Assembly: GCA_945870785.1 (NCBI GenBank)
Contig: CAMBTK010000008.1
Location: 1-48,240, forward strand
DNA length: 48,240 nt
Direction of reading: 5' to 3'
DNA from: Sulfurimonas crateris
Lineage (GTDB): Bacteria; Campylobacterota; Campylobacteria; Campylobacterales; Sulfurimonadaceae
Shown here: piece after piece, positions 41,472 through 48,240 of the stretch
Layout of the letters: every line of letters begins with the position of its first letter
How positions within the stretch are numbered: position 1 is the stretch's first letter
Position numbers and translations under genes: made by a program
The notes under the pieces: generated by a model
What the model saw: only the letters and a program-made list of their open reading frames with translations
What the model was told of the DNA's origin: nothing
Databases searched by the model: none

Positions 41472-41560
41472 GGATCTTTGGCTGAGTTGGTCGATAGCAC
41501 CGGTCTTGAAAACCGGCGAGGGTTATACCTCCCAGAGTTCGAATCTCTGAGGGTCCACCA
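41472..41560 (+). tRNA. tRNA-Ser (anticodon TGA), likely integration site
   Basis: A class II tRNA: GGATCTT pairs with AGGGTCC (with wobbles), CCGGT/ACCGG holds the TGA anticodon, the long variable arm is GAGGGTTATACCTCC, T-loop TTCGAAT, CCA encoded. Unlike neighbouring sequence the region after it is AT-rich and carries mobile-like genes, so its 3' end is the probable attachment site. Confidence 0.96.
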
Positions 41561-41777: not shown

Positions 41778-43127
41778 CTATATTTCTTTTACATAGGCAT
41801 CTTTTTTTGCATTCAATTCATCTTCAGTAATGGAAAAAATTGGGATGCTTGGTATTCTGTCCCACATTCCTGTTATCTCTATTGCTTCTGAACCAGCAAT
41901 TAGTTCTTTATATTTTTCATCTTCTATATACTCTCGCATTAGCTTATAGACTTTTTCTATTTTATCACTTTTACTCAATTCCAGATGTTTTTTATTTTTA
42001 CTTTTGGCTACTTTACCACTTCTTAAATACTGATTGTGTACATCAGAGATACCACAGGCAAGTGAAACTTCAATATGAAGAGTTAGCTTAGTATAATCAT
42101 CATCTTTTTTTAGCTTTTTTTCATATATATTTTCAATATATTTATAAAGGTCATAAATATATATTGCATCAGCAAAATCTTTTTTCGAAATATTCTTCTT
42201 TTTTTGACTTTTTGGCTCTTTTGCATCTATAAGAAATTCCCCAAATATTTCTAAAGGACTTTGCACGATGCTTTTATTAGTATCAAAATCATCTTTAATT
42301 TTAGAAATATAAGCTATAAGCTCTTTCTTACTCAAATTAAGATTAACAGGAATATTTACTACTTTTTCATTTTTAAATTTTAATGTGGGTGCAGAATAGC
42401 TGATTTTAGCTTGAGGCAATTTGTATACAGTTCTTATTATGTTCAAATCTTGTAAAAAATCTTTATCCAGTATTTCCAAAGGCATATCTTTAGATAAAGC
42501 GGTTAGTTTTTGCTCCCCAGATTTTTTATCTTTACAATAAGTAGCATACTTCCATGGGGTTTGCATAATATCATCAATTCTCTTTTCGGCTTCATCTGTA
42601 TCAATTGGTTCGAAATATTGAACTTTTAAATCATTTCTTGCATCATAACCTTGCTTGCTACAAATATATAAATTTTGTGTATCGACTAAATATGAAATAA
42701 GCTTCCATAATCCTATATGCTCCACATCAAGATCAAAATCAAATATTTTTATATCATTTAGTGTAACATTAGAATCATCAATTTCAAAAAACGAATCATC
42801 TTCAGATGACTTATTGCTTTCCTCTAAAAAACCACCATATCCTAAATTAATCGAATCTCTATAAAAATCAGTCAAATTTAATGTATCAAAATATTCTTCT
42901 AAATTTTCTTTGTATTGCTTTGCTCTTTCAAAATGTTTTTTAACTTTTTCATTTCTTTGCGATAGCTCATAAGCCAATACATATGTATACTCATAATCTA
43001 AAACATTCTCCATATTAATATAAAAAATATCATACCTCTTAGGTCTTTTTTTATATACTTCATCACCAATACATTCGTCAAATAATGCCGATAACTCTTC
43101 TAATACTTTTCTTTCTTGCTCAGTCAT
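41778..43127 (-). CDS. Unknown 449-aa protein at the island edge
   Basis: I do not recognise this protein. It is acidic, soluble and probably mostly helical. Noticeable parts are an N-terminal helical section (EQERKVLEELSALFDECIG), an acidic middle (about 100-125, SSEDDSFFEIDDS), and a charged Lys/Glu C-terminal half. No signal peptide or membrane helix, and no recombinase Tyr or Ser motif that I can see, so it is not an obvious integrase. It reads towards the tRNA and is divergent from the HTH gene with 214 bases between. The start lacks a clear Shine-Dalgarno (GATAAACTTTATAT before ATG). Confidence 0.78.
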   Translation of the reverse strand: MTEQERKVLEELSALFDECIGDEVYKKRPKRYDIFYINMENVLDYEYTYVLAYELSQRNEKVKKHFERAKQYKENLEEYFDTLNLTDFYRDSINLGYGGFLEESNKSSEDDSFFEIDDSNVTLNDIKIFDFDLDVEHIGLWKLISYLVDTQNLYICSKQGYDARNDLKVQYFEPIDTDEAEKRIDDIMQTPWKYATYCKDKKSGEQKLTALSKDMPLEILDKDFLQDLNIIRTVYKLPQAKISYSAPTLKFKNEKVVNIPVNLNLSKKELIAYISKIKDDFDTNKSIVQSPLEIFGEFLIDAKEPKSQKKKNISKKDFADAIYIYDLYKYIENIYEKKLKKDDDYTKLTLHIEVSLACGISDVHNQYLRSGKVAKSKNKKHLELSKSDKIEKVYKLMREYIEDEKYKELIAGSEAIEITGMWDRIPSIPIFSITEDELNAKKDAYVKEI

Positions 43128-43341: not shown

Positions 43342-43578
43342 ATGTCAGAAAATTTGGAAAAAGTAAATTTTGTAGAAACTTATGCAAAATTAACAAAAAG
43401 ATGGTTGTCACCTGATGATTTAGAAAAAGAATATGGCTTTAGCAAAAGCACTCAAAGTAAAATGCGCATGCAAAGCTCAAATTCAACAATACCTTTTTCA
43501 AAGGTTGGCGGTAAATATATTAGATATGACAGAGTTGCTATAGATAAATGGCTCGAAGAACACCAAATGCGAGGTTAA
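43342..43578 (+). CDS. AlpA/excisionase-like helix-turn-helix protein
   Basis: A 78-aa protein of the MerR/AlpA-like helix-turn-helix group: LSPDDLEKEYGFSKSTQSKM is the likely HTH, followed by the wing-like IPFSKVGGKYIRYDRVAIDK and WLEEH. Such proteins act as excisionase or activator in phages and islands, for example P4-like AlpA. AAGGA lies 8 bases before the ATG. It leads the plus-strand set: the 48-aa gene begins 2 bases after its stop. Confidence 0.82.
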   Translation: MSENLEKVNFVETYAKLTKRWLSPDDLEKEYGFSKSTQSKMRMQSSNSTIPFSKVGGKYIRYDRVAIDKWLEEHQMRG

Positions 43579-43580
43579 AG

Positions 43581-43727
43581 ATGAATGATAATAATGGTTA
43601 TCGTCCTGCTCTGGCAGTAAATAACAAGCAGCAGCGTTACAGTAACCTATCGAAAAAAGTTGGCGATGGAATTTTCTTCACTATTGATGAAATTAATAAA
43701 AAAGAAATCAAAAGAGGTAAATTATGA
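43581..43727 (+). CDS. 48-aa unknown protein between HTH and helicase
   Basis: A short frame starting MNDNNGYRPALAVNNKQQRY, with GDGIFFTIDEINKKE in the second half. Start follows GAGGTTAAAG, and the stop overlaps the helicase ATG (ATGA), so translation is coupled. No match known to me. The length, start site and overlap make it a likely gene. Too short for domain assignment. Confidence 0.65.
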   Translation: MNDNNGYRPALAVNNKQQRYSNLSKKVGDGIFFTIDEINKKEIKRGKL

Positions 43728-45301
43728 GTAACTATACAAATATTTCATATGAATATGAAGATGATATCTTCGCAGATGAAATTAAAGACTCTACTAAAAA
43801 TTCAAATGACAATATGGTTCAAAGGGAAATGGAAGATTTAGAGAATCTTGATGAAAATCTTAATGTAAATATAGAAAAACAAAAGATGGAAGTTTTGTCA
43901 ACGGATATTATTTGTGATGGCAGTGGTTTTCAAAATCTTATAGAAAAAGATGATACATTAGAACCACCACCTGATTTTTCAAAATATAAATTCAACAACT
44001 TCAGAGTTTCTGATAATGAGTACCTTATTAAATTAGAAAAAGCTGGTGGTGCATTGATTATGTTTGATGATGGAGAGTTGATGTTGAGATCATCACCAGA
44101 TGCAGATTTTAAAAAAGTCACTGAAGAAAAAGCTAGCAGAGTTATAAGCAAACTAATAGGAGAATTTATTACAGTAGGGAGAGGGACAAAGGATAGACCA
44201 CCTGAGATTAAGTATGAAGATTTAATGTTGGTTTCCACTGATGATATTGATACTGGTATTATGGAAGAGTTTTATAAAAAGGGTAACACATATGTGATGA
44301 ACAAGTTTAAACCCACTGAAGCTTTGTTGCTAGATAAAGATACGCCTTATAAAAAGCCAACATACTCCTTGAAGCTAATAGCACACTTAGTGAATTACAA
44401 TGAAGAGCGCTTTCATTATATTATGAATTGGTTAGCTTACATGTTTGTGTTTTTGAGCAAATCACAGGTTGCCGTTGTCCTTAGAGGGGTACAAGGTAGT
44501 GGTAAAGGGGTGTTTTTTAACCTTGTCTCATTGTTATTTGGTAAAGAATATTGTTTTACAGTGGGGAACAAAACTATTAAATCGCAGTTTCTTGGTAGTG
44601 TATTTGAGTTTAAACTTTTTATCAATATCAACGAGATGTCTCATGATATAAAATCTAATAAAGAGAATAAGAACTCTTTAAAAGAACTTGTGACAGATTC
44701 AGAATTTGCAGGTGAAAAAAAGTATGAGAACATCTCTAAACCAATTAAACTAACTGCGCAAATATTGATAACTTCAAACGAGGCATATATTCTTGAAATA
44801 GAACCAGAGGATAGAAGATACACTGTATTTTCTACAGCTGGAAATATATCAAACGAAGAGTGTAACTTTTTTGGATTTGGAGATTTTAAAGTTCTAAAGA
44901 AACAACTAGAATTTGAGCTGCCAAATTTAGCATTATACCTGAAAAACTATCCTATAGATACGAACCTTGCGAACAAAGCACTCAATACATATGAAAAAAA
45001 AGCTTTAGTCAAAGGAACAAATGATAGATTTAAATTGTTTATCAATGCTCTTTTGACTCAAGATATAGAGTATTTAGAGCCGCTAAAAGCAAAGAATCCT
45101 ATTGTATATGCAAATATGATTTCAGGATTTAAAAAAGGAAGAATCTATCAAAGAGATATGTTGCCTGCTTTTATTGCAATGAATCCTAGTGATTTTGCTA
45201 TGTCTACACAAGCATTGCTTGACAAGCTTGAGATATATGAACCAACAAAATTTTCAAGAGACCTAAGAAAAAAATCTAGCGAATACTACTTTAACCTATA
45301 G
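43724..45301 (+). CDS. SF3/D5-type replicative helicase (DUF5906-like)
   Basis: A 525-aa protein whose middle is a superfamily 3 helicase of the phage D5/P4 kind. Walker A is GVQGSGKG at 255-262 with Lys261, Walker B-like LFININEM with Glu304, and motif C ILITSNE with Asn352. A proceeding N-terminal region of 150 residues (about 95-170 with LIKLEKAGGALIMFDDGELM) is not a recognisable primase: no clear primase catalytic motif is visible. The C-terminal 150 residues are helical and basic. In this family the helicase is joined to a primase or polymerase, as in the NrS-1 phage of a related deep-sea genus. The 4-base overlap with the 48-aa gene suggests coupling. Ends in a terminator-like hairpin. 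Confidence 0.87.
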   Translation: MSNYTNISYEYEDDIFADEIKDSTKNSNDNMVQREMEDLENLDENLNVNIEKQKMEVLSTDIICDGSGFQNLIEKDDTLEPPPDFSKYKFNNFRVSDNEYLIKLEKAGGALIMFDDGELMLRSSPDADFKKVTEEKASRVISKLIGEFITVGRGTKDRPPEIKYEDLMLVSTDDIDTGIMEEFYKKGNTYVMNKFKPTEALLLDKDTPYKKPTYSLKLIAHLVNYNEERFHYIMNWLAYMFVFLSKSQVAVVLRGVQGSGKGVFFNLVSLLFGKEYCFTVGNKTIKSQFLGSVFEFKLFININEMSHDIKSNKENKNSLKELVTDSEFAGEKKYENISKPIKLTAQILITSNEAYILEIEPEDRRYTVFSTAGNISNEECNFFGFGDFKVLKKQLEFELPNLALYLKNYPIDTNLANKALNTYEKKALVKGTNDRFKLFINALLTQDIEYLEPLKAKNPIVYANMISGFKKGRIYQRDMLPAFIAMNPSDFAMSTQALLDKLEIYEPTKFSRDLRKKSSEYYFNL

Positions 45302-45305
45302 AATG

Positions 45306-45329
45306 GCTTTAGACTTAATTGTCTAAAGC
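45306..45329 (+). terminator. Hairpin between helicase and the 350-aa gene
   Basis: GCTTTAGAC and GTCTAAAGC make a perfect 9-bp stem around TTAATT, 5 bases after the helicase stop. The tail TATTTTAATT is T-rich but interrupted, so it may terminate part of the transcripts and lower expression of the genes that follow. Confidence 0.6.
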
Positions 45330-45369
45330 TATTTTAATTACAAAAAATAAACACATAAGGAGTAACAAA

Positions 45370-46422
45370 ATGGTTATAACGCCATATGATAATAGCTTTA
45401 AGCTATGTGAGCATTGGTTCGTCAATGCAAAAAACAATCTTCTTAATGAAGAAATATTAAATTTACAAGTCTTCAGTCATGGGGGATTTCCTAGAACTTT
45501 TCAAATAGTTAAAACGCTTATTAAAACTATTATGAAAGAACAGCAAGAGGAAATTCTTGAAGATAGCAACGACTGTTTTGCAACGAGATTATATTCAGTA
45601 TATTTTACATGGACAACAAACATATCAGATATTAGCTATGAACAAAACAGGAATATAATTTTAGTAACACTACATACACCTGATTTTCTTGAAATTCATA
45701 GACCTATTTTATGTGTTTCACTCAAGGATTATTCTCTTGATCTAAACAGTAGATTTAGAAAAACCCCTCTAAATGAGGAATTTTTAAATAAGCTCGTAAA
45801 TGGCTTAGCACATGATTTAGCAAAACCTGAACTAAGTGAAGTTGAACAATATACGATTTATATCAAGCAACTACCATTAATGGAGCTAATGAAAAATAAA
45901 GAGTATCAAAAAATTGGACACTACATTTATAAAACTATCATTAGAGAACCCTACCATCAAATACTTATAGACACTGAATATAGCTCAAAAAAGTATTGTT
46001 TTCAAAATTTAATTCTTGATGATATTAAAATGTTTGTAAATGAAAAAGTTTTGTTAGCTAGATTGTCTATTATTATATACAGACTATCTTTTTTAGAGTT
46101 TGACAAAGATATATCTGCTATCACTAAATTTTTTAGTCAAAAACTTGCATTAGGAGATAGTGAAAATCTATATTTGGATCATTTAAACTTCATAAGTAGA
46201 GATTTAAACAGTACTTCAAGTTGCAGCGCTTATGATTTGAGATACTTAGAGTCAAAACAAATAGCAAAGGCAAAAGAGATTATCAAAAACCAAAAAAACA
46301 GATATGGAGATGAACCTGAATTTGAATTTGATAGAGAAGCGATATATGAAGCAACATACCTTTCTCATGGAAACATCGAGCAACTAATTCAAATGGAGGT
46401 ACTTAACCATGGCACAAACTGA
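45370..46422 (+). CDS. Unknown 350-aa island protein
   Basis: I do not recognise this protein. Start chosen at the ATG 45370-45372 (MVITPYDNSFKL) because AAGGAG is 7 bases upstream; the frame could extend to 45319. It is soluble and alpha/beta, with SHGGFPRTFQIVKTLI near the N-terminus, LHTPDFLEIHRPILCVSLKD (residues about 105-125) and an acidic helical C-terminus. No signal, membrane helix or known catalytic motif. It lies between the helicase and the pseudo-helicase and overlaps the latter by 14 bases, so these two are made together. A replication accessory role is inference. Confidence 0.75.
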   Translation: MVITPYDNSFKLCEHWFVNAKNNLLNEEILNLQVFSHGGFPRTFQIVKTLIKTIMKEQQEEILEDSNDCFATRLYSVYFTWTTNISDISYEQNRNIILVTLHTPDFLEIHRPILCVSLKDYSLDLNSRFRKTPLNEEFLNKLVNGLAHDLAKPELSEVEQYTIYIKQLPLMELMKNKEYQKIGHYIYKTIIREPYHQILIDTEYSSKKYCFQNLILDDIKMFVNEKVLLARLSIIIYRLSFLEFDKDISAITKFFSQKLALGDSENLYLDHLNFISRDLNSTSSCSAYDLRYLESKQIAKAKEIIKNQKNRYGDEPEFEFDREAIYEATYLSHGNIEQLIQMEVLNHGTN

Positions 46423-48106
46423 ATCAAACTGGTTTATCGATATTTGTGATGACATCATATTCATGCTAGATAACAATGAGTTTAACTACACAAATAGTAC
46501 CATTTATAATAGTTTAATAGTAGAGCTTTTCAAAGATTGTGTAAACTTTACTATTTCTTACAATAATCAAGAATACAATCCTGAGAAATTTTTTGATAGT
46601 TACACACAAGAAGAATTATTAGCTCTTGATATTTTCAAAGCTTTGCTTCGAGAAAGTCGTGAACTTATGGATATAGATATAAATAATTCAGATGATATAG
46701 CTCTTCTGGAATCTTATTTCAATAAAATCGCTTTAACTCTTGATAATGCTACATCTGCTCAAGCGGTTCAAGCTTATAACTCAACACATTTTCCCATGGC
46801 ATCAATTTCAACTGATGCAAATAGCAATTACAAAAAAATCATCAAAGCCCATGAAAAATGGCTTGGTGATTTGGCTCTTATAACGCAACAGCAAAAAAAA
46901 ATAGAACTGGAGCAAAACTTTCTTTATCAAAAAGATATTGACATAAAAAATAGAATTGCTGACAATCACCATAGAACAGTTAATTTACTATGTAATCAAG
47001 ACTTAAAAATATGGAAAGATCAAAATAACAAACTTTACTATAGGCAAAAAGCATTTGAAAAAGAGCAAAAAGTCAGTAAAAATGAGATGGGTGATATTAT
47101 AAATTTTCATCCCAATATATATGACTCTACAAATGATGTTCAAGTCATAGAAGCAGATTATATAATAGTTTCATTATTGCCTACAGTGCGAAAAAATATC
47201 TTCAACCCATTTTCTAATAATGAGTTTATATTTATTTCCAATAACCTATATGATAGAAATACTTTTGAATATACGGAATTATTAAAAAAGAGATTAGTTC
47301 ATGTACGCATTAATCAACTACAACTAGAGATTATGAATCTTAAATCACAACTACACTATTCACAAGCATATTATCAACAGACATCAAACCAGATTATTCA
47401 TAAAGAGCATGAGTTACAATGGCTAAGAGGCTCATTAATTGTCAAAGAGAAAAGCTTTATAGAAGAGTATTTGAGATTAGTTTTTCAAAATGAAAAAGAG
47501 TTTTATTTTTTTATATTTTGGTTAAGTAATTTCTTTTGGACTTTAAGTAAGTCCAATATAGCAGTTATTTTAATAGGAGATAGTGAAACAACAGATATTT
47601 TGGTTGAGTACATTATCAAACCAATCTTCATAAATAACAAAAAATATATGGGTACTATTACAAATGATTCCCTATTAAAAGAAAGTAACGATAATAAGCT
47701 ACTTGAAGATAAAATCTTTTTTCATATCAATAATCTTGGTGCTAAAACAGATTTAAGAAGAGTAAGTAAACTGTTAAGAAATATTGTGAAACCAAACCAT
47801 ATAACTCCTTTTCAAGCATGGGATAATGATGAACCATATATTTACGGCGAATTACTTGTAACATCTGAAAAAGAAAATCCGTACAGCTATTTAAAGAGTA
47901 TTTTTAGTAGTTGTTCTGTACTTAGAGTAAAAAGCATGGATACAATTTTAGATAAACTTAATATGGAATATTCTCAATTTGATAAGAGTATAGCTGATGA
48001 TCTAAATAACTTCGTTAATAAATTAGTAGATTACAGCCAATGCAATAAACTACCCGTTGTGATTAATACTGATGAAAAGTCTTATTTGCACACTATAATG
48101 GCCTGA
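46409..48106 (+). CDS. Degenerate SF3-helicase-like protein (catalytic residues lost), possibly truncated
   Basis: A 565-aa protein; the first 340 residues are unrecognised, with coiled-coil sections (about 150-185 and 305-350). Residues about 368-520 resemble the helicase encoded two genes upstream. FWLSNFFWTLSKSNIAVILIG matches NWLAYMFVFLSKSQVAVVLRG in about half the positions. The ATPase residues are gone: Lys261 of the helicase corresponds to Asp396, Glu304 to Asn442 and Asn352 to Glu487. The chain ends about 90 residues before the matching end of the helicase, at a TGA where an IS3-type element may begin. GGAGG is 9 bases before the ATG, and the frame is fully open, so it is probably expressed. 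Likely a non-catalytic partner of the helicase. Confidence 0.8.
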   Translation: MAQTESNWFIDICDDIIFMLDNNEFNYTNSTIYNSLIVELFKDCVNFTISYNNQEYNPEKFFDSYTQEELLALDIFKALLRESRELMDIDINNSDDIALLESYFNKIALTLDNATSAQAVQAYNSTHFPMASISTDANSNYKKIIKAHEKWLGDLALITQQQKKIELEQNFLYQKDIDIKNRIADNHHRTVNLLCNQDLKIWKDQNNKLYYRQKAFEKEQKVSKNEMGDIINFHPNIYDSTNDVQVIEADYIIVSLLPTVRKNIFNPFSNNEFIFISNNLYDRNTFEYTELLKKRLVHVRINQLQLEIMNLKSQLHYSQAYYQQTSNQIIHKEHELQWLRGSLIVKEKSFIEEYLRLVFQNEKEFYFFIFWLSNFFWTLSKSNIAVILIGDSETTDILVEYIIKPIFINNKKYMGTITNDSLLKESNDNKLLEDKIFFHINNLGAKTDLRRVSKLLRNIVKPNHITPFQAWDNDEPYIYGELLVTSEKENPYSYLKSIFSSCSVLRVKSMDTILDKLNMEYSQFDKSIADDLNNFVNKLVDYSQCNKLPVVINTDEKSYLHTIMA

Positions 48107-48240
48107 AAAATCAAGACAACTTTTCAGCTTAATTAATTTCCACCTCTAGTTGCTACTTTATACTACACTTTTTAAATATTCAAGATAGAGATTCATTGGT
48201 TTTTGATAACCTATGCTTGAATGAAATCTCTTAAAATTAT
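48104..48240 (-). mobile_element. IS3-family insertion sequence, one end only
   Basis: The right edge of the window holds the 3' end of an IS3-type transposase gene and its flank. The other end is outside, so the inverted repeat cannot be compared. I place the boundary tentatively at 48104, where TGAAAAATC begins, because IS3-family ends start with TG and lie some 50 bases from the transposase stop. The stop codon of the 565-aa gene would then be the first bases of the element. TGAAAA...TTTTCA (48104-48127) can also form a small hairpin. Confidence 0.5.
48158..48240 (-). CDS. IS3-family transposase (OrfB), C-terminal fragment
   Basis: The minus strand of the last 83 bases encodes FKRFHSSIGYQKPMNLYLEY then LKSVV and a TAA. 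RxHSSxGYxxPxxxY is the conserved C-terminal end of IS3-family integrase-type transposases. The rest lies beyond the window. It is read towards the 565-aa gene. Confidence 0.82.
   Translation of the reverse strand, partial: NFKRFHSSIGYQKPMNLYLEYLKSVV

Follow-up and report, generated by a model that had tools for sequence, protein, structure and literature searches.

An inactive SF3 protein beside an active helicase

Small DNA viruses, phage satellites and plasmids as a rule rely on ring helicases of the SF3 type as their motors. What could a member of this family do for its element once the motor residues are gone? The question is raised by the window analysed here, the whole of a 48,240-base contig (G000:C8) from a draft genome of Sulfurimonas crateris (1.73 Mb in 82 contigs, 88.6% complete), in which an integrative-type element carries an intact SF3 helicase and, downstream of it, a relative that lacks the ATPase positions. 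We give roughly even odds (about 0.5) to the reading that this relative is a member, truncated by an insertion sequence (IS), of an old motor-dead SF3 clade of Campylobacterales integrative elements, where it acts as a non-motor accessory of replication. The two genes are as follows:

43724..45301, plus strand: active-type SF3 helicase, 525 amino acids (aa), matching PF19263 (DUF5906) at E 2.9e-14
46409..48106, plus strand: motor-dead SF3 protein, 565 aa as called

BLASTP aligned the two proteins at E 8e-7, a tblastn search of the same genome with the 565-aa protein recovered the helicase gene (E 6.5e-6), and profile–profile comparison of dead with active proteins (hhalign) gave a probability of 100 and E 5.5e-51 over 411 columns, placing residues 185–654 of the full-length dead protein on residues 96–514 of the helicase. 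On these alignments the dead protein shares descent with SF3 helicases, as the original prediction had proposed for its C-terminal domain. The same prediction had called the N-terminal 340 residues new, which is too generous: residues 185–340 are not new because homology begins at about residue 185 and takes in the Head domain. Since homology spans almost the whole helicase, only about the first 180 residues would be new, these having no relative detected outside the clade.

The 525-aa helicase has a complete set of motifs, namely Walker A GVQGSGKG, E304, N352, the DNA-hairpin Lys and the Arg-Arg finger. Read without gaps from the conserved Gly, the dead protein has D396 for K261 (GVQGSGK becoming GDSETTD), N442 for E304 and E487 for N352, and these three ATPase substitutions are just those described earlier. 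The equal spacing of 91 residues from P-loop to motif C, which had been taken as a further likeness, is correct as arithmetic but depends on compensating insertions and deletions once the alignment is gapped. Beyond the three positions, two more have been lost, the Arg-Arg finger and the DNA-hairpin Lys, the latter being Ala in the K525 column (NrS-1 polymerase numbering). None of Walker A GxxxxGK, the Walker B acidic pair, the motif C Asn, the arginine finger(s) or the hairpin Lys is present in the 565-aa protein. It also gave no match to PF19263 (threshold 27.6 bits), a cut-off that two distant members of its clade, in genomes G440 and G510, do exceed. The regions concerned are:

46961..47308, plus strand: Head-domain region, residues 185–300 (hhalign E 5.5e-51; structure model against the C-terminal region (CTR) of NrS-1 polymerase, Z 12.1)
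47453..48043, plus strand: dead SF3/AAA+ domain, residues 349–545 (alignment, hhalign, model and a ratio of nonsynonymous to synonymous substitution rates, dN/dS, of 0.116)
47576..47599, plus strand: Walker A remnant GDSETTDI, replacing GxQGxGKG (motif tables)
47807..47836, plus strand: site of the DNA-binding ("KN") hairpin, PFQAWDNDEP, with its Lys lost (role of the Lys in NrS-1: PMC7102993)
47903..47911, plus strand: arginine-finger site, FSS replacing DRR (role in NrS-1: PMC7102993)

Truncation by an IS3-family insertion

The native length of the dead protein can be read from Sulfurimonas sp. BM502 (PPDH01000003), in which the same three genes, 88% identical in DNA, follow one another in the same order and the dead orthologue is 670 aa long. 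The similarity of the window to BM502 ends at 48093. Two more features are needed here:

45319..46422, plus strand: middle protein, 367 aa as called, between the helicase and the dead gene
48094..48240, plus strand: end of an IS3-family insertion sequence interrupting the dead gene, the contig ending within it

The final 147 bp of the window contig also close contig C61, letter for letter, and contig C21 leaves this repeat at its opposite end, where the terminal sequence is the same. Related IS copies are present in other genomes; the one in G142 is about 1.3 kb long and encodes a 401-aa protein scoring 293 bits against an IS3 transposase model. Because the match to BM502 stops at 48093 and the IS repeat follows, the 565-aa open reading frame, judged from the nucleotide comparison, consists of 561–562 native residues and 3–4 IS codons, and its end is not native. 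The remainder of the dead gene was not found elsewhere in the window genome, of which the assembly covers 88.6%. The IS has removed the Tail domain, which is present in the 670-aa BM502 orthologue and in the rest of the clade, and the dead protein of the window strain is probably impaired by this loss. The same IS has also split a PAS-kinase gene, the two parts of which lie on C61 and C21; a target repeat of 3 bp (AGA) appears to accompany the insertion.

Kept fold and lost motifs across the clade

The structure model of the 670-aa BM502 orthologue has a mean predicted local distance difference test (pLDDT) score of 66. Its best match is the CTR of NrS-1 polymerase (Z 11.8–12.1 over 358–367 residues; Foldseek E 1.9e-7), and the match at Z 12.1 covers 367 residues, laying model residues 184–669 on residues 304–718 of the NrS-1 chain. 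Sequence profiles agree, with E 1.4e-7 against the NrS-1 CTR for the dead proteins and E 1.6e-60 for the active helicases. Profiles and model together indicate that the dead clade descends from a ring helicase of the NrS-1 polymerase type, composed of a Head, an AAA+ SF3 body and a Tail. The NrS-1 CTR forms a hexameric ring of these three parts, and unwinding is lost in each of the mutants K453A, K525A, R555A and R556A (PMC7102993).

The motif tables compared 18 intact with 21 dead rows in NrS-1 numbering. K453, K525, R555 and R556 are present in all 18 intact rows. The dead rows have lost the second Walker A Gly, the motif C Asn and R555 without exception, R556 in 20 of 21 and the hairpin Lys in 19 of 21 (kept in two). 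As counted over these 21 rows, the loss of the motor has one part that is constant (the Walker A Gly, the sensor Asn and the arginine fingers) and another that varies. Not one of the dead rows keeps the Walker A consensus, so that no homologue with an intact Walker A, which the original prediction had named as evidence against itself, was found within the clade.

A rebuilt nucleotide site, for instance around GDxExT, might still bind or hydrolyse nucleoside triphosphates (NTPs), and the conservation of Gly390 followed by the GDxExT pattern throughout the main dead branch is in keeping with such a cryptic ATPase. We regard it as highly improbable, as the Walker B Glu, the sensor Asn and both arginine fingers have been lost together in most members, and K453A alone abolishes the NTPase activity of NrS-1 (PMC7102993).

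Origin, distribution and pairing of the two kinds

With the catalytic columns excluded, a maximum-likelihood tree placed 20 dead and 18 intact proteins on opposite sides of one branch, which has a support of 100/99.6 and was recovered in 200 of the 200 bootstrap trees sampled. The tree thus indicates that the dead proteins form one old clade of single origin. The window protein had been described as duplicated and disarmed within the island; since the dead clade splits from the intact proteins, it is not a disarmed copy of its neighbour, and two old lineages have been brought together. Local duplication is ruled out by the same tree.

About 25 dead loci were found, spread over four families of Campylobacterales, among them the family of the window genome and the one to which Sulfurospirillum diekertiae belongs. 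In the genome searches, few candidates per genome were scored for the alignments and the contig scan used one peptide pattern; four of the loci (L159, L139, L132 and L142) come from later searches and stand outside the 21-row tables. No relatives were found when the 670-aa protein, the 565-aa protein or alignment A2 was compared with plasmids, phages and IMG/VR viral contigs. Genome G149 has three dead loci (on contigs C7, C28 and C38) as well as an SF3-like reading frame on contig C10 (L089) that is also motif-broken. One contig with Sulfurospirillum-like element genes (L094) is filed under a Bacteroidia metagenome-assembled genome and is probably misbinned.

The pairing with an active helicase is confined to a single lineage. 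A PF19263 search of 16 dead-bearing genomes, the window and BM502 included, gave no hit in nine, only the dead protein itself in four, an active copy elsewhere in the genome in G527, and paired genes in the window and BM502, which alone have both kinds in one locus. Genome G140 also has both, about 850 kb apart. Most dead members are the sole SF3 protein found in their element. The proposal of a helicase and dead-protein pair as a general system is not supported, with one shared locus in two genomes and no DUF5906 hit in nine of the 14 others. As to novelty, the earlier statement that no system of this sort has been described agrees with the literature searched for inactivated SF3 families, subscription-only papers lying outside its scope, in which none was found.

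These results bear directly on the idea of mixed rings, in which the dead protein would be a regulatory or structural subunit in the ring of the active helicase encoded by the same operon, a part that inactive AAA+ subunits play in some eukaryotic rings. In the window and in BM502 the helicase, middle and dead genes have stayed together (88% DNA identity), and Head and body are common to the two proteins, as is the Tail in BM502. Against this stand the single paired lineage, the nine other dead-bearing genomes without a DUF5906 hit, and the deep split between the two proteins in the tree. The window protein, moreover, has no Tail, a domain required for hexamers in NrS-1 polymerase, which is a monomer without it (PMC7102993). 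We consider mixed rings quite unlikely as an explanation; they are possible for BM502 and unlikely as a general role. The clade is instead an SF3 branch without a motor, a broad old family and not a local pair.

Selection on the dead gene

Between the window and BM502, dN/dS is 0.116 for the dead SF3 domain and 0.093 for the active one, and 0.20 and 0.13, respectively, for the whole proteins. Five other dead pairs gave 0.27–0.41, and two active pairs 0.06–0.14 (dS saturated). The main dead branch shows no variation at ten residues (W202, F265, E272, N284, G390, K404, D434, K435, G480 and T485). From these substitution ratios, the dead gene is under purifying selection, though less strictly than the active helicase, constraint being weaker because the other dead pairs exceed the active helicases in dN/dS.

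The higher ratios of these five pairs would also be expected of a relic, that is, a gene slowly decaying in elements that no longer need an SF3 helicase, and they go together with motif loss that varies among members, with the IS-cut window copy, and with a copy of the Sulfurospirillum family (G334, L075) that is a fragment of 265 aa with an IS3-type gene pair after it. We think this unlikely, given that reading frames stay open over 450–970 aa in four bacterial families, that the window and BM502 dead domains have a dN/dS as low as 0.116, and that the ten residues of the main branch do not vary. Because the parts that burn ATP and pull DNA have been lost while selection stays, the dead protein probably does a non-motor job for its element.

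Gene neighbourhood and proposed role

The neighbours of the gene give some indication of what this job might be. Among 17 dead-only loci, 12 have genes for DUF932, Gp157-like and Rad52-like proteins, and a small helix-turn-helix gene (c7) occurs in 11 of the 17 and in none of 12 active-only loci. The primase pair c5, on the other hand, stands beside the active gene in eight of the 12 and is absent from all 17 dead-only loci. Six dead loci (L029, L073, L074 and L076–L078) carry c9, a YagK/YfjJ-type replication protein of the HUH class, with the HxH motif in all eight members. Six others (L028 and L064–L068) carry c8, a putative replication protein without a Pfam match, which was never found together with c9 in a dead locus; we infer that c8 stands in for c9 as the initiator.

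The helicase of these elements may itself vary. Elements with the same backbone in genomes G140 and G011 carry a relative of the middle protein together with a gene for an SF1 helicase (RecD2/PIF1-like), which points to helicases being interchangeable in this backbone. RecD2/PIF1-like SF1 helicases were noted at L122 (4289–5671) and L123 (10351–11736), in elements that share this backbone and have a middle-protein relative, with no SF3 gene in the stretch read.

In the mechanism that we propose, the dead protein would form an oligomeric Head–body–Tail scaffold, perhaps a ring, on the element DNA, adjoining the HUH-type initiator of the YagK/YfjJ family or its apparent substitute. The scaffold would position other replication and recombination proteins, such as the Gp157-like and Rad52-like proteins and a host helicase, and unwinding would be left to another enzyme, which in the window and BM502 could be the active relative. 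In its full form, with the whole clade having given up its motor to serve HUH-nickase elements that use another helicase as a scaffold, possibly of ring shape, or as a loader of helicases, and one lineage having been paired with an active relative, this proposal is tentative and somewhat short of probable.

Several observations weigh against the accessory role or the evidence brought for it. Of the 21 dead rows, six still have Lys at the Walker A column and three have the Walker B Glu; dN/dS of the other dead pairs lies above that of active helicases; and confidence in the BM502 structure model is middling, at a mean pLDDT of 66. Nor is the HUH link restricted to dead loci, c8 or c9 being present also in the intact loci L030, L031 and L069. 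Since the loci are related by descent, Fisher tests on the neighbours overstate significance, and the counts are to be read as a pattern and not as independent tests. The loss of the hairpin Lys also argues against ordinary gripping of single-stranded DNA.

A protein that has lost its motor residues and DNA hairpin but kept its fold and its selection might alternatively limit copy number, or block related elements or NrS-1-type phages, by binding the origin or partner proteins but not unwinding; such phages infect the same hosts and use a related active ring. Such a regulatory or interfering role is conceivable but on the whole improbable. The defence-system models of PADLOC gave no hit, the gene is surrounded by genes of recombination and replication and takes the place of a replication gene, and the dead protein, being often the only SF3 protein of its element, would have no partner of its own to inhibit.

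Edge of the element and remaining genes

After the end of a tRNA cluster at 41560, the G+C content of the window drops from about 38% to 28–31%, and the genes that follow are of the integrative-element type (the 449-aa protein, an AlpA-like protein, the 525-aa helicase, the 367-aa middle protein and the 565-aa protein). The features of this part are:

41472..41560, plus strand: tRNA-Ser(tga), final member of a Gly-Leu-Cys-Ser cluster (ARAGORN)
41778..43127, minus strand: 449-aa protein of family c21, adjoining the tRNA edge
43342..43578, plus strand: 78-aa AlpA/excisionase-like helix-turn-helix protein (phrog_66, E 1.8e-5; HTH_17, E 2.4e-5, just below the Pfam cut-off)

The tRNA-Ser(tga) gene is the probable integration edge of the element. 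In genome G111, of the same genus, a dead-SF3 element (L073) lies at the same tRNA cluster, adjoining ilvD-thrS-infC. Other dead-SF3 elements adjoin tRNA genes, and in two genomes a transfer-messenger RNA gene, with integrases beside it (L029, 4952–5328; L068, 11550–11925). In the window, L073 and L078, the tRNA edge, a place usually held by an integrase, is occupied by family c21. Its protein has 449 aa in the window and 637–664 aa in the others, has no database relatives, and the 449-aa form gave no match in Pfam and NCBIfam. Regarding traits of satellites of the P4 or phage-inducible chromosomal island (PICI) type, an integrase is present at the BM502 locus, the window contig stops inside the element, and no helper-related gene was identified.

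The middle protein probably starts at the ATG at about 45370 and not at the TTG at 45319, because the BM502 start matches Met18. Its family (c48) follows the active helicase in L030 and L069 as well, and L068 has a 55-aa remnant only. The middle protein has no sequence relative in the PDB, and its structure model is unusable (pLDDT 37). The possibility that it is the split-off N-terminus of the long dead forms was rejected, as hmmsearch and hhalign detected no similarity.

Implications and comparison with known systems

If the reading of an old motor-dead accessory is true, the question moves from an odd pair in one island to the level of a family. A motor-dead branch kept by selection across four bacterial families would mean that the ring body is useful apart from unwinding. 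Moreover, the clade would provide a natural separation-of-function series, in which some members keep the Walker A Lys and others only the Walker B Glu. It would also raise the question of which helicase replicates these elements.

Among known systems, the CTR of NrS-1 polymerase (PDB 6k9c, 6k9e and 6lrb) is the closest in plan, with the same Head–SF3–Tail order across residues 304–718 and hosts that are likewise Campylobacterota. NrS-1 polymerase, however, is an NTP-hydrolysing, DNA-unwinding enzyme with a fused Prim/Pol domain, while the dead clade is without the residues for this activity and its N-terminal part is unrelated to NrS-1. The SaPI5 primase-helicase (7ola, 7om0) and PriRep1 (7pds) are also SF3 rings of mobile elements (Z 9.0, 8.9 and 6.1), but they are active helicases with a primase and only distant kin of the dead protein. 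The 525-aa helicase of the window is a member of the DUF5906/VapE-like helicases in Pfam, grouped here with the C-terminus of P4-type primases, and, unlike this neighbour, the 565-aa protein is not recognised by these models. Inactive AAA+ subunits of the kind found in the origin recognition complex (ORC) stand in mixed rings with active paralogues and are kept for structure. The dead SF3 proteins resemble them as ATPase-dead members of a ring-forming family; unlike ORC subunits, most of them have no active relative found in their genome.

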